Shown here piece by piece: positions 41,390 through 46,585 of a DNA stretch of 47,375 nt. Source of the DNA: Bacteroidota bacterium. Its GTDB lineage: Bacteria > Bacteroidota > Bacteroidia > JABEUT01. The stretch spans positions 11,673 to 59,047 of the forward strand of contig JABDHI010000010.1 in NCBI GenBank assembly GCA_013285655.1, in the 5' to 3' direction. A program made the position numbers and the translations under genes. The notes under the pieces are model-generated. The model did no database searches, was not told the origin of the DNA, and saw nothing but the letters and a program-made list of their open reading frames with translations. Numbering within the stretch: position 1 is the first letter of the stretch; every line of letters starts with the position of its first letter.

Positions 41390-41965
41390 CTACTGCCCGT
41401 CGCCTTCGTCGGCGTTATTGCTTTTACCGAGGGTAAGATCGAGGCGAGAGCCTACAGCCAGTTTATCGCCGGGAGACATTAATTTGCCTTTGTAACGTAT
41501 TTCTAATACGCAGCCAACGCAAATGTCGGTCTTGGTGCTAATGCTGCCAATTTTAAAGCCTTGTTGTTGTAATACCAGTTTAGCACGCTCAAACGATGCT
41601 TCGAAAATGCTTGGTGGTAATTCTACCAAAGGTGCTACTGCAGTTGTAATGTATAAATAGATGTTACGATCCTTTTTAACGTGTGCTCCTTTGTATGGTA
41701 TTTGGTTAATTACCGTTTGCGGTGGCAGTTTTTCATCGTACGATGAATCAATTATCACATAATTTAATTCTTTTTCTTTCAATAAACCTTTTACATCTTT
41801 CAATGATTGTTTGGTCAGGTCAGGTAATACAATGTATTCGCCATGGCGGGTATACCAACTTAAAAAACTGCTTGCACCACCAAATACAACAGCCAGTAAC
41901 ACCACAGCTATTGCCAGGTTAATAAAGAATGTCTTACTTTTTATAAACTCTTTAAACTCTCCCAT
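41390..41965 (-). CDS. PASTA domain protein
   Basis: 191 aa: short cytoplasmic N-terminus, one TM (FFINLAIAVVLLAVVFGGAS, about 13-32), then two PASTA domains (about 42-110, YIVLPDLTKQSLKDVKGLLK; about 112-180, LPPSIFEASFERAKLVLQQQ). PASTA domains bind peptidoglycan or muropeptides. It lies downstream of the double Ddl on the same strand (103 bp gap), the gene neighbourhood usual in Bacteroidota. No kinase or transpeptidase domain. Tail is polar (SNNADEGDGQ). Confidence 0.9.
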   Translation of the reverse strand: MGEFKEFIKSKTFFINLAIAVVLLAVVFGGASSFLSWYTRHGEYIVLPDLTKQSLKDVKGLLKEKELNYVIIDSSYDEKLPPQTVINQIPYKGAHVKKDRNIYLYITTAVAPLVELPPSIFEASFERAKLVLQQQGFKIGSISTKTDICVGCVLEIRYKGKLMSPGDKLAVGSRLDLTLGKSNNADEGDGQ

Positions 41966-42068: not shown

Positions 42069-44756
42069 TTACTTTTTTGTAAAACTATATTTTAAAATGG
42101 CATCTATAAAACCAAATGGTGTGTAACCGTTAATTGCGGTTTGGTGAAAAATGCAAGTAGCCGGCGTCATACCCGGTAACGAGTTCACCTCTATAAATAC
42201 TACTTCCACTTTACCGTTCTTATACACACGCACAAACGCATCTATACGGGCATAGCCCTCAATATTCAGCAACAGGGCCGCGCGTTTAAGCTCGGCCTTT
42301 ACTTTATCTGATATGGCTTGCCTTTGCTTGGGGTTAACTGCATAACGGGCCGGAGTAATGTTCTGCCCCTCCCCTGCTAAAAACTTTTCTTCTAACGATA
42401 ATACAGCCCCTTCCGATAATGCTTCCGAAGCTTCAAATATTTCGTAGGTCTTACTCTTGCCGTTATGGTGTGTAAGCAGTCCGCCTGTTATTTCTAACAA
42501 ATGCTGGGCGCCTTTTTTGCTTATCATCTCTTCTGCCAAAAATGCGTTCTTCTGCGGAAACTCTTCGTTCTGTTTTATCTTCAATATCTCAGCCGCCTTT
42601 GCATCTTTCTTTTCTTCAGGGCGGAATATCAACTTTACAAAAGCTTCAAACTCTTGCAGGGTATCTATCTTACGCACTGCCGAACTGCAACCGTCATCAA
42701 TTGGTTTGGCTATAAATGGCACACCCAGCTTGGTTGACAACTTCTTGAATAAAGCTTTAGTATCTTTCTTACACTCCTCGTGCGTAATTACAATATCATC
42801 GGGCACCAACAGGCCATTGTGGCGTAAAATATTGTTGGTCTCGTATTTATTTATGGTAATAGCCGATGTTGCCGCTGACGATCCGTTGAATGGCAAACCA
42901 ACTTTGCTCAACTCTATTTGTACCTGTCCATCTTCGCCCGGGCGACCATGCAGAGCAATAAACACACCATCTACTTCCTTAGCCAGTTGGGCATAGGTAA
43001 GTTTGCGAGGCGGTGTTAAACTATTGCCTGTTGAATATTTTTCAGTAATGCTTTCGCATTGCTGCTGCACACGTTTTATATAGGGGTGAATTTTAAAATT
43101 CTCAATCTTCTCGCGTATATCGTCCGCATTATCTTTCAGCAATATGTTAATAGGTATCTGGTAAAGCGAATAGTTACCTGCTTTGCCTGCTAAAAACACA
43201 GGTATCGGTTCATATTGGCTCGATGATGCCAGCTTCTCGTAAATGTTCCGTCCGCTTTCAACTGATATATGTCGTTCTGATGAATAACCGCCGAGTATTA
43301 CAGCTATCTTCTTTTTATTCGAACCTTTTTGTTTGTCTTCACCAATCAATGTATCAACACGGTGCAACAGTTCGTTGTAACGCGGATTGTTCTTGCTCGC
43401 CTCTACCCTTTCTTGTAAGGATACACGAATGATATAAGTAAGGAAGCGTGAAGGGTTCAAACCAATTTCGGCTGCCTGGTGAAAGAAGAACGACGAGGGC
43501 AACATACCCGAAGTAGTGTTCGGATCATTTAAAAATATTTTGTTCTCGTCGGTTATAAAACCATCAATACGGGCATATACATTAAAGTGCATACTGCTGA
43601 ATAAACTGCAACAGGCATCTGCTATCTGTTTAATATGTTCTTCAGGCAAGTCTATCGGAGTGATCTTTCGCGATAAGCCCGGTAAGTATTTCGAACGGTA
43701 ATCGAACAGTTCTTGTCCTTTGCGTATTTCGGTCGGTGGCAATGCAATAGGCCTGCCGCTTTCATCTTGTATTACAATGCACGAAAACTCTTTGCCACGC
43801 AAAAAGCTTTCTATTATCACTTCACTTTCTCCGTCGAAAGCCTCGAGTATAATATGTTCACCACTCTTACTAAACTGCGCGGTAAGTTTCTTCAATAATT
43901 CTTCCGGGTGTAATACAATGCTGTTGTACCCACTTTGGCGTAATGCCAGCGGAAAACCCAAGCCTTCGCGTATATCACTCAGGTGGCGCACGTAATCAAC
44001 CTGTGCTTCACGGTTCATCTTAGTCCATGCTGCATGCGTAAGCTTGGTTAAAAAGAAAGCTTTCAGCACCGCATTTTCAAACGAATCGTAATCGGTTTGC
44101 ATTAATACCGTTGCACCTATCGATGAGCCTTGATTGGCAGGCTTAATAACGCATGGCATACCAACTGTTTTCTTAACCTCTTCGTATAATTTCTTAATCG
44201 TACTGGTTTCAAAACCTTCTTCACGCTTAACAATTCTGTATGCCGGAACGGGCAGGCCCGCTTCGTACATCCAGTTACGTTGTATGGCTTTGTTCATACC
44301 CAATGCCGACGAAAATACGCCCGAACCCGAATAGGGTATCTTCATATAATCGAGCAGGCCCTGTATGCTGCCATCTTCGCCCCCTGCACCATGCAGGCAC
44401 AAAAAGGCAAAGTCAATATGGTTCTTAAGTTCTTCGGCTTTTACCGGCTTGCCCAGTTTTTGCAGCATTTTAACAGCCAGCTTATCTTCCCCATCCTTTA
44501 ACGATTCGGCATATACCTGGTAATGGTGTGGTGTAGCCGGCAAATATTCTACGGGCGGGTAAAAATCGCGTATGCTGCCTTTGTAAATATATTTCCAGTC
44601 CAATATTACAAAATTGCCAAAGCTGTCCACAAAAATCGGTACAGGTTCAAATAACGATTTGTTCAGGTTATCGTAAACGGTTCTTCCACCTGCAAACGAT
44701 ACTTCCCGCTCCCGCGAATACCCTCCGAAAAATATGCCTACACGCAACTTGCTCAT
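42069..44756 (-). CDS. ddl: Tandem D-alanine--D-alanine ligase fusion
   Basis: 895 aa, twice a normal Ddl (about 300-370 aa). It contains two complete ATP-grasp ligases. Copy 1 (about 1-465): GGYSREREVS, LHGAGGEDGSIQGLLDY, PYSGSGVFSSALGMNK, KPANQGSSIG, YARIDGF, then LNDPNTTSGM where the usual metal-binding EVN is DPN (Asp411, Asn413). Copy 2 (about 483-895): GGYSSERHIS, LHGRPGEDGQVQIEL, KPIDDGCSSAV, YARIDAF, EVNSLPGMTP (Glu856, Asn858). A short Lys-rich linker (about 473-483) joins them. Ddl makes the D-Ala-D-Ala dipeptide for peptidoglycan in the cytoplasm. Copy 2 has the canonical active-site end; copy 1 is slightly diverged but most of its motifs are kept. Confidence 0.93.
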   Translation of the reverse strand: MSKLRVGIFFGGYSREREVSFAGGRTVYDNLNKSLFEPVPIFVDSFGNFVILDWKYIYKGSIRDFYPPVEYLPATPHHYQVYAESLKDGEDKLAVKMLQKLGKPVKAEELKNHIDFAFLCLHGAGGEDGSIQGLLDYMKIPYSGSGVFSSALGMNKAIQRNWMYEAGLPVPAYRIVKREEGFETSTIKKLYEEVKKTVGMPCVIKPANQGSSIGATVLMQTDYDSFENAVLKAFFLTKLTHAAWTKMNREAQVDYVRHLSDIREGLGFPLALRQSGYNSIVLHPEELLKKLTAQFSKSGEHIILEAFDGESEVIIESFLRGKEFSCIVIQDESGRPIALPPTEIRKGQELFDYRSKYLPGLSRKITPIDLPEEHIKQIADACCSLFSSMHFNVYARIDGFITDENKIFLNDPNTTSGMLPSSFFFHQAAEIGLNPSRFLTYIIRVSLQERVEASKNNPRYNELLHRVDTLIGEDKQKGSNKKKIAVILGGYSSERHISVESGRNIYEKLASSSQYEPIPVFLAGKAGNYSLYQIPINILLKDNADDIREKIENFKIHPYIKRVQQQCESITEKYSTGNSLTPPRKLTYAQLAKEVDGVFIALHGRPGEDGQVQIELSKVGLPFNGSSAATSAITINKYETNNILRHNGLLVPDDIVITHEECKKDTKALFKKLSTKLGVPFIAKPIDDGCSSAVRKIDTLQEFEAFVKLIFRPEEKKDAKAAEILKIKQNEEFPQKNAFLAEEMISKKGAQHLLEITGGLLTHHNGKSKTYEIFEASEALSEGAVLSLEEKFLAGEGQNITPARYAVNPKQRQAISDKVKAELKRAALLLNIEGYARIDAFVRVYKNGKVEVVFIEVNSLPGMTPATCIFHQTAINGYTPFGFIDAILKYSFTKK

Positions 44757-45207: not shown

Positions 45208-45581
45208 AAAGCAGGCCGTTCTATCGTTCTGTAGCAATACAGGAAGGAAAGTCCGGACAACATAGAGCGACCCGCCCCCAGAATACGAGGGAGACCGGTA
45301 GTAAATACCGGTAATGGACAGTGTCGCAGAGAATATACCGCCCTAGCGTTTACCGCAAAGGGTAAGGGTGAAAACGCGTGGTAAGAGCTCACGATTTTTG
45401 TTGGTAACAACAGAAGTGATAAACCCCGGGTGTTGCAAGGCCAAATATGCCATGGCTTGAGGGCTGCTCGCCCAACATGGTGGGTAGGCTGCAAGAGCAA
45501 GGGTAGCAATGCCCTGCCCAGATAAATGATAGAAGTGCCCGAAAGGGTTCACAGAATCCGGCTTACAGGCCTGCTTTTTTT
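45208..45581 (+). ncRNA. rnpB: RNase P RNA (catalytic subunit)
   Basis: About 374-nt type A ribozyme that trims tRNA 5' ends. Recognised by conserved core: GGAAAGTCCGGAC (45246-45258), ACCGCC...GGTAAGGGTGAAA (about 45338-45373), GGTAAGAGCTCAC (45380-45392), ATAAACCCC (45420-45428), CAGATAAATGATAGAAG (about 45520-45536) and ACAGAATCCGGCTTACAG (45551-45568). Helix P1 is AAAGCAGGCC (45208-45217) paired with GGCCTGCTTT (45568-45577), followed by T7 as the terminator tail. The 3' end overlaps the first unit of a tandem array (see repeat at 45562-45917). A protein frame on the other strand here is an artefact. Confidence 0.97.
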
Positions 45582-45917
45582 ACCCTCTTACTTAATAGTT
45601 CTTTTACCCAAACCCCTAAAGGGGCTTTAATACACGGGAGTTCTTTTGCCCCCTTTAGGGGGTTGGGGCTTACAGGCCTGCTTTTTTTTACTCTCTTACT
45701 TAATAATTCTGTTACCCCAAACCCCTAAAGGGGCTTTAATACACGGGAGTTCTTTTGCCCCCTTTAGGGGGTTGGGGCTTACACGCCTGCTTTTTTTTAC
45801 TCTCTTACTTAATAATTCTTTTACCCCAAACCCCTAAAGGGGCTTTAATACACGGGAGTTCTTTTGCCCCCTTTAGGGGGTTGGGGGTTACAGGCCTGCT
45901 TTTTTTACCTACTCCCA
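45562..45917 (+). repeat. Tandem array made from the rnpB 3' end plus a palindromic element
   Basis: Three full units of 107, 109 and 109 bp (starting 45562, 45669 and 45778) and a partial fourth (45887-45917). Each unit opens with the RNase P 3' end, CTTACAGGCCTGCTTTTTTT, then about 28 bp of spacer (ACTCTCTTACTTAATAATTC), then a palindromic element ACCCCAAACCCCTAAAGGGG...GCCCCCTTTAGGGGGTTGGGG. Unit 3 has ACACGCCTGC for ACAGGCCTGC. The palindromic element also occurs alone at 46518-46585, so it was inserted behind rnpB and then amplified together with the rnpB tail. The 340 bp after rnpB hold nothing else. Confidence 0.93.
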
Positions 45918-45921
45918 AAAA

Positions 45922-46398
45922 CTACTTATGGTGAATATCTGTTTCTAATTGACCTTCCTCAATTATAAACACTCTATTTTTCTCTCCGGGATTATCTTCT
46001 TTGGTAAGAATGACTTCTGTATTCCTATTTATTTTCAAAGTGGCTCCCTTTTTTAAATGCACTTTAAAATCAGGAAGCGATGTGTCACCCACCTGTGGTC
46101 TTGCCATAAACTCCATTACAAGATTACTGTCAGATGATTGAAGGGCCTGACCAATAGGAATATTATGGAGGAAAACAGCACCTGGTATAAATATAACCGA
46201 GGCTTCTGTTGCCTTAAGACAAAGACCTCTCCGCCAAAGAATCTTTTCCCCTGGAGCAATAGATACTGTCTTATATTTATTGGTATCATACTGGTTAACC
46301 AAGGAGTCGGCGTAGGTATATACCTCCATTTGCGTACCAGTATTTCGACAAGAAAAAATCAGTATAGAAAGTAATATTGAAAGCAAAGTAGTTCTCAT
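45922..46398 (-). CDS. FecR-like lipoprotein
   Basis: 158 aa. Lipobox LIFSC (Cys17), then a beta-rich domain with KKGATLKINRNTEVILTKED and NRVFIIEEGQLETDIHHK, resembling FecR-type ligand-binding domains. No TM or sigma-factor partner. The ATG at 46398 gives a clean lipoprotein signal. A perfect -7 element lies only 5 bp upstream (46403-46410, minus), so the mRNA may be leaderless or have an extremely short leader. Confidence 0.72.
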   Translation of the reverse strand: MRTTLLSILLSILIFSCRNTGTQMEVYTYADSLVNQYDTNKYKTVSIAPGEKILWRRGLCLKATEASVIFIPGAVFLHNIPIGQALQSSDSNLVMEFMARPQVGDTSLPDFKVHLKKGATLKINRNTEVILTKEDNPGEKNRVFIIEEGQLETDIHHK

Positions 46399-46419: not shown

Positions 46420-46503
46420 GGCTAAAGCCCTATAGCGCTGTACTAACTTAACCCCAGACTTAAGTCTGGGGTTATTAATAATAGGTAGGTATTGGCTTTA
46501 GCC
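46420..46503. repeat. 84-bp palindromic element
   Basis: Outer inverted repeat GGCTAAAGCC / GGCTTTAGCC (46420-46429 with 46494-46503) around a perfect 24-bp palindrome (46450-46473, AACCCCAGACTT and its complement). Same GGCTTTAGCC building block as the element at 41232-41379. Confidence 0.75.
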
Positions 46504-46517
46504 GTGAGGTCGCCGTC

Positions 46518-46585
46518 TACCCCAAACCCCTAAAGGGGCTTTACTACACGAGTGTTCTTTTGCCCCCTTTAGGGGGTTGGGGGTA
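46518..46585 (+). repeat. Single copy of the CCCCTAAAGGGG palindromic element
   Basis: TACCCCAAACCCCTAAAGGG at the left and TGCCCCCTTTAGGGGGTTGG at the right, with ACACGAGTGTTCTTT between. It matches the element inside each unit of the rnpB array. Confidence 0.85.

Follow-up and report, generated by a model that had tools for sequence, protein, structure and literature searches.

A tandem array of rnpB 3' ends and a dispersed REP-like element downstream of the RNase P RNA gene in a Bacteroidota genome

Introduction

Why should the 3' end of an essential ribozyme gene stand four times in a row, and do the additional copies serve the RNase P RNA or are they merely tolerated? The window, i.e. 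the whole stretch of 47,375 nucleotides analyzed here, raises this question immediately downstream of rnpB, where copies of the gene's tail alternate with a palindromic element. The answer depends on how the array is built, where its element comes from, what relatives carry at the same locus, and how often comparable arrays occur elsewhere in bacteria.

Structure of the array at the rnpB 3' end

A cmscan search of the window identified rnpB at 45208-45581 (+) as a match to the full RF00010 model (247.4 bits, E = 1.8e-79), corresponding to class A RNase P RNA, with the first tail copy at 45560-45581. Tandem Repeats Finder (TRF) placed an array with a period of 109 and 3.2 copies at 45560-45906 (+; score 645, 96% matches) and found no other array with a period above 30 in the 47-kb window; the array is not a chance product. 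It comprises four rnpB tails, starting at 45560, 45667, 45776 and 45885 (spacings of 107, 109 and 109), and three inverted-repeat elements, and its repeat unit begins at GGCTTA, within the last 22 bases of rnpB. Tail copy 2 (45667-45691, +; 92% in repeat family D3) contains an intact 3' strand of helix P1 followed by a T-run, whereas the P1 strand of tail copy 3 (45776-45800, +; 88% in the same family) differs at one base (CACGCC instead of CAGGCC in the unit alignment). Tail copy 4 (45885-45909, +; 96%) opens a partial last unit of about 25 nt and retains the P1 strand, its single change (GGGTTA for GGCTTA) lying just ahead of it. The elements occupy 45607-45667 (arms of 18 nt, 94% complementary), 45715-45777 and 45824-45886 (arms of 19 nt, 95% complementary in both), with a loop of 25 nt.

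The first-pass annotation, made from the letters alone, had described four tails, three elements, the same spacings and one altered base in copy 3, and had stated that copies 2 and 4 keep the P1-pairing sequence, all of which is borne out by cmscan, TRF, the repeat search and the unit alignment. It had also correctly let the unit begin with the tail, but placed the exact start two bases too late.

In the unit alignment, the element is invariant from AAACCCC onward in all three units, and the differences are confined to the tail and spacer, where they occur at fixed positions (T7/T8, ACCC/ACTC, AATAG/AATAA, CAGG/CACG and CCC/CCCC). Units 2 and 3 form the closest pair, while T7-ACC of copy 4 is like unit 1; this distribution of differences suggests that the array may have grown in more than one duplication step. 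The array sits between convergent transcription units, and the stop codon of the facing ORF (45922-46398, -; 158 aa, no Pfam match in hmmscan) lies 15 nt past its end. On the other side of rnpB, an 895-aa ORF at 42069-44756 (-) contains two tandem D-Ala-D-Ala ligase modules (two N-terminal and several C-terminal Pfam stretches), and it is adjoined by a PASTA-domain protein at 41390-41965.

The element is dispersed and specific to the genus

BLAST returned 44 matches of the element in its own 2.69-Mb draft genome, and the arm pattern ACCCCTAAAGGGGCTTT occurred 32 times in this genome versus 0 times for the reversed control. The same pattern was present in 7 of the 11 genomes of the genus and in 0 of 29 genomes of other families. 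Judged by this sequence distribution, the element is a dispersed, genus-specific repeat, for which REP-like is used here as a description rather than as proven membership. Like REP sequences and BIMEs, it is a short palindrome found in many copies between genes: 21 of 22 sampled copies were intergenic, with flanking genes in all orientations. The loop often varies among copies, and a subtype resembling CTTTAATACAC....GTTCTTT is common to the array, to a solitary copy at 46519-46583 and to two copies in G008, a genome of the same genus. The solitary copy (own-genome BLAST match G000:C10:58190-58256) is 96% identical to the array copies and has no rnpB tail; upstream of it, at 46449-46474, lies a perfect 26-bp palindrome, TAACCCCAGACTTAAGTCTGGGGTTA.

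Transcription termination was considered and rejected as the main role of the element: of the 22 sampled copies, 7 are flanked by divergent gene pairs and 3 by convergent pairs, and an element placed irrespective of gene orientation does not act primarily as a terminator. Nor does it have the form of an intrinsic terminator, in which a hairpin at a gene 3' end is followed directly by a T-run, as 13 nt separate the hairpin of the element from the T-run, a gap that makes stand-alone termination doubtful.

The genome encodes five Y1_Tnp (RAYT-type) genes. Within this incomplete assembly, the exact CCCCTAAAGGGG element flanks none of the five loci. One Y1_Tnp gene, at locus L073 (G000:C15:4877-8221), lies between inverted AACCCTGAAGGGGTT repeats, the pair AACCCTGAAGGGGTTGAAT / ATTCAACCCCTTCAGGGTT, which resemble the dispersed element without being identical to it. 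On another contig (L021, G000:C56), element matches at 1935-2000 and 2041-2108 lie about 107 bp apart and have almost identical loops; the pair points to a further local duplication, here without an rnpB tail, and TRF did not report the pair as a tandem array. A literature search with the element string retrieved no relevant paper.

History of the locus within the genus

The ddl-like gene upstream of rnpB is also found in G008, G009, G002, G005 and G007. At the ddl-rnpB locus of G009 no element follows the rnpB tail, and in G004 no element adjoins the tail. The ddl-rnpB locus of G008 carries one element and one tail, spaced roughly as they are in the window. The array is present in the window genome only, among the same-genus loci. 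The simplest order of events is insertion of the element followed by duplication, and the loci of G009 and G008 support the first-pass proposal that a palindromic element inserted beside rnpB before the segment expanded. Two separate insertions, one in G008 and one in the window, might also have occurred, because both elements belong to a subtype that has other copies. As for copy number in relatives, a comparison that the first-pass annotation had called for, the nearest relatives have one tail, and the window species is represented by a single genome. RNase P RNA is expected in G006 (same genus, 99% complete); this genome gave no RF00010 match even in a three-genome search, which may reflect an assembly gap or a divergent RNA.

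Recurrence of rnpB tail arrays across bacteria

About 57 rnpB loci with their flanks were inspected in a sample of the class. Only two of them, in the window genome and in G030 (in all probability the Chitinophaga MAG CAMCYR010000010.1), showed a tandem array with a period of 30 or more, and the rnpB tail forms part of the repeat in each. The window had been selected because of its array, which leaves G030 as the sole unbiased case in this sample. The array of G030 consists of a 152-bp unit repeated three times; in G390, a genome of the same genus whose downstream gene is homologous, rnpB has just one tail.

Across 84,980 species, a scan with a degenerate pattern yielded 89 loci. Of these, 69 are rnpB with extra tails, recognized by a conserved core lying at the expected distance or, where the contig stretch was short, by the pre-tail motif. 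Rfam was applied to 14 of the 69 loci and confirmed 13, the exception being L134, which is cut at the edge and gave no match. Enterobacterial-type tails were present at 60 of the 69 loci, and the other nine belong to Kangiella and a Kangiellaceae MAG (four), Microbulbifer, an Oceanospirillaceae MAG, two Clostridia MAGs and the Chitinophaga MAG. Because the scan was limited to spacings of about 96-156 and its tail motif matches 27 of 44 tails of the class, this total is a lower bound. The remaining 20 of the 89 matches were discarded as not rnpB: those in Acidithiobacillus and Gallionellaceae look like CRISPR-type arrays, and the rest are chance matches or other repeats. One contig labelled Chryseobacterium sp. 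18061 (L188) has an rnpB of enterobacterial type with a 109 x 5.5 array and probably comes from a mislabelled or contaminated assembly.

Kangiella and enterobacterial units have in common an altered stretch ahead of GGCTTA, and on this resemblance the arrays of these two groups may be of one old gammaproteobacterial origin. Counting the arrays of Clostridia, Chitinophaga and the window in addition, at least four origins are likely. An oddity of E. coli rnpB recurs in two Bacteroidota lineages with different units, in Clostridia and in several gammaproteobacterial groups, and comparison among them offers a way to test whether selection maintains the spare 3' ends of an essential ribozyme or whether they are simply tolerated.

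Origin and role of the extra tails

The array is probably the product of a REP-like insertion followed by a tandem duplication running from tail to element, with tail 1 still working and the extra tails mostly passengers. A copy of the dispersed, genus-specific inverted repeat would have landed just downstream of rnpB, after which a segment starting at GGCTTA in the rnpB tail and extending to the end of the element would have been duplicated in tandem to give three units and a partial fourth, through unequal recombination or replication slippage, perhaps aided by the hairpin. Since this segment starts within the 3' end of rnpB and extends away from the gene, the upstream gene would be left intact and tail 1 would remain the working P1 strand and termination site. 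Slippage or unequal recombination, as already put forward in the first-pass annotation, fits the E. coli analogue, in which complete genomes have four tails (K-12), three (BLR(DE3) and LR-24), two (RM9975) or one (Nissle 1917). Varying in this way between strains, the extra copies of E. coli are dispensable and unstable; they are readily gained or lost and are non-essential in at least one lineage. This natural series also makes the distinction between selected and tolerated copies easy to test in laboratory strains.

On this account the extra tails would be mostly tolerated, acting at best as a weak back-up upon read-through. Such a passenger status is the most likely one, ahead of a fail-safe role that is itself possible. 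Two observations point the other way: the 92-95% identity of tail copies over 24 nt at the 69 loci, together with terminators at most copies, could reflect selection rather than tolerance, and the persistence of arrays in such a large number of Enterobacterales may point to a benefit.

A less probable but serious alternative is that the extra tails have been retained to provide fail-safe 3' ends, with a read-through transcript stopping or being trimmed at a later copy. The later tail would pair with the sole P1 5' strand or, CAGGCCTG being self-complementary, with an earlier tail, the convergent gene would be protected, and usable RNase P RNA would still be made. The position of the array between convergent genes suits this reading, as does the preservation of the P1 strand in three of the four window tails, although copy 3 has lost a P1 pair. 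In the minimum-energy fold, each of the four tails is available for pairing with the P1 5' strand, in agreement with the first-pass suggestion that alternative tails could be used; given that every tail can pair, folding cannot discriminate for or against a function. Against the accompanying suggestion of back-up terminators, the extra tails in the window carry just the P1 strand and T-run and no strong local terminator hairpin (2 weak terminator-like sites versus 1.8 expected from shuffles), whereas at the 69 comparison loci a terminator-like hairpin and T-run follow 156 of 194 tail copies. At lineage-variable positions, the tails within one genome agree at 0.83-0.95, versus 0.48-0.57 with genomes shuffled. 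This agreement fits selection on the tails, but homogenization through recombination predicts it as well. The single tail of E. coli Nissle 1917 speaks against a general need for spare 3' ends. A role of the extra tails as back-up terminators or alternative P1 strands is possible but hypothetical.

Extended to all such loci, selection would make rnpB 3' ends a recurrent, convergently selected array site in distant phyla, with spare copies of the P1 strand and terminator serving to adjust or protect the formation of the RNase P RNA 3' end. This broader proposal is rather unlikely; if true, the window would be a Bacteroidota case in which long-range P1 pairing and a REP-like hairpin replace the local terminator.

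It is improbable that a mobile element integrating at the rnpB 3' end left the tails behind as duplicated attachment sites. Islands do integrate at tRNA and tmRNA genes, and direct repeats of an RNA gene 3' end do flank an inserted element here. However, the tails of the window are separated by just about 85 nt, too short for any gene, and neither a recombinase nor a cargo gene of an integrative element lies between them; the element also occurs at dozens of sites without an rnpB tail, and in G008 it stands next to rnpB without a second tail. An assembly artefact, conceivable in a draft metagenome-assembled genome (68.7% complete, 121 contigs), is very unlikely, because the units differ at fixed places and analogous arrays occur in complete E. 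coli chromosomes.

Comparison with known systems

The repeats downstream of E. coli rnpB reportedly came to light in the early 1980s, with the sequencing of the M1 RNA gene; our literature search on rnpB tandem repeats retrieved no relevant paper. In K-12, a 113-bp unit is repeated 3.5 times with 96% matches, and each copy starts with the exact rnpB tail and includes a terminator hairpin; Rfam matched RF00010 alone in this region, with no RtT family. Like this control, the window array consists of units that start inside the rnpB 3' end and follow one another head to tail downstream. The two resemble each other in the gene involved, the unit start (CGGCTTA in E. coli, GGCTTA in the window), the period (113 versus 109), the copy number (3.5 versus 3.2), the 96% matches and the partial last unit. 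They differ in that each E. coli unit has its own strong terminator hairpin, whereas the window unit has the dispersed element, a P1 strand and a T-run; the unit sequences are otherwise unrelated. A terminator hairpin in every unit, which the window array lacks, is a variable trait among such arrays. This identical architecture, together with the dispersal of the element, had been missed in the first-pass annotation.

The Chitinophaga MAG array belongs to the same class, with the exact tail GGCTTACAGGCCTGCTTTTT present three times, but its unit starts deeper in rnpB, reaches the start of the next gene and does not contain CCCCTAAAGGGG. At E. coli tyrT, 178-bp repeats start with the tRNA 3' end; there too, the end of a stable RNA gene has seeded a tandem array, although the gene is a different one. 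The element itself is comparable to REP and BIME sequences with their RAYTs in being a short, dispersed, intergenic palindrome in a genome with Y1_Tnp genes, and differs in that none of the five Y1_Tnp genes in this incomplete assembly is flanked by exact CCCCTAAAGGGG. Taken together, the window array and the E. coli rnpB 3' repeats represent one type of structure, whose architecture was already known; the window array is a separate case of that architecture, built on a genus-specific dispersed element, and the broader recurrence is the interesting part.
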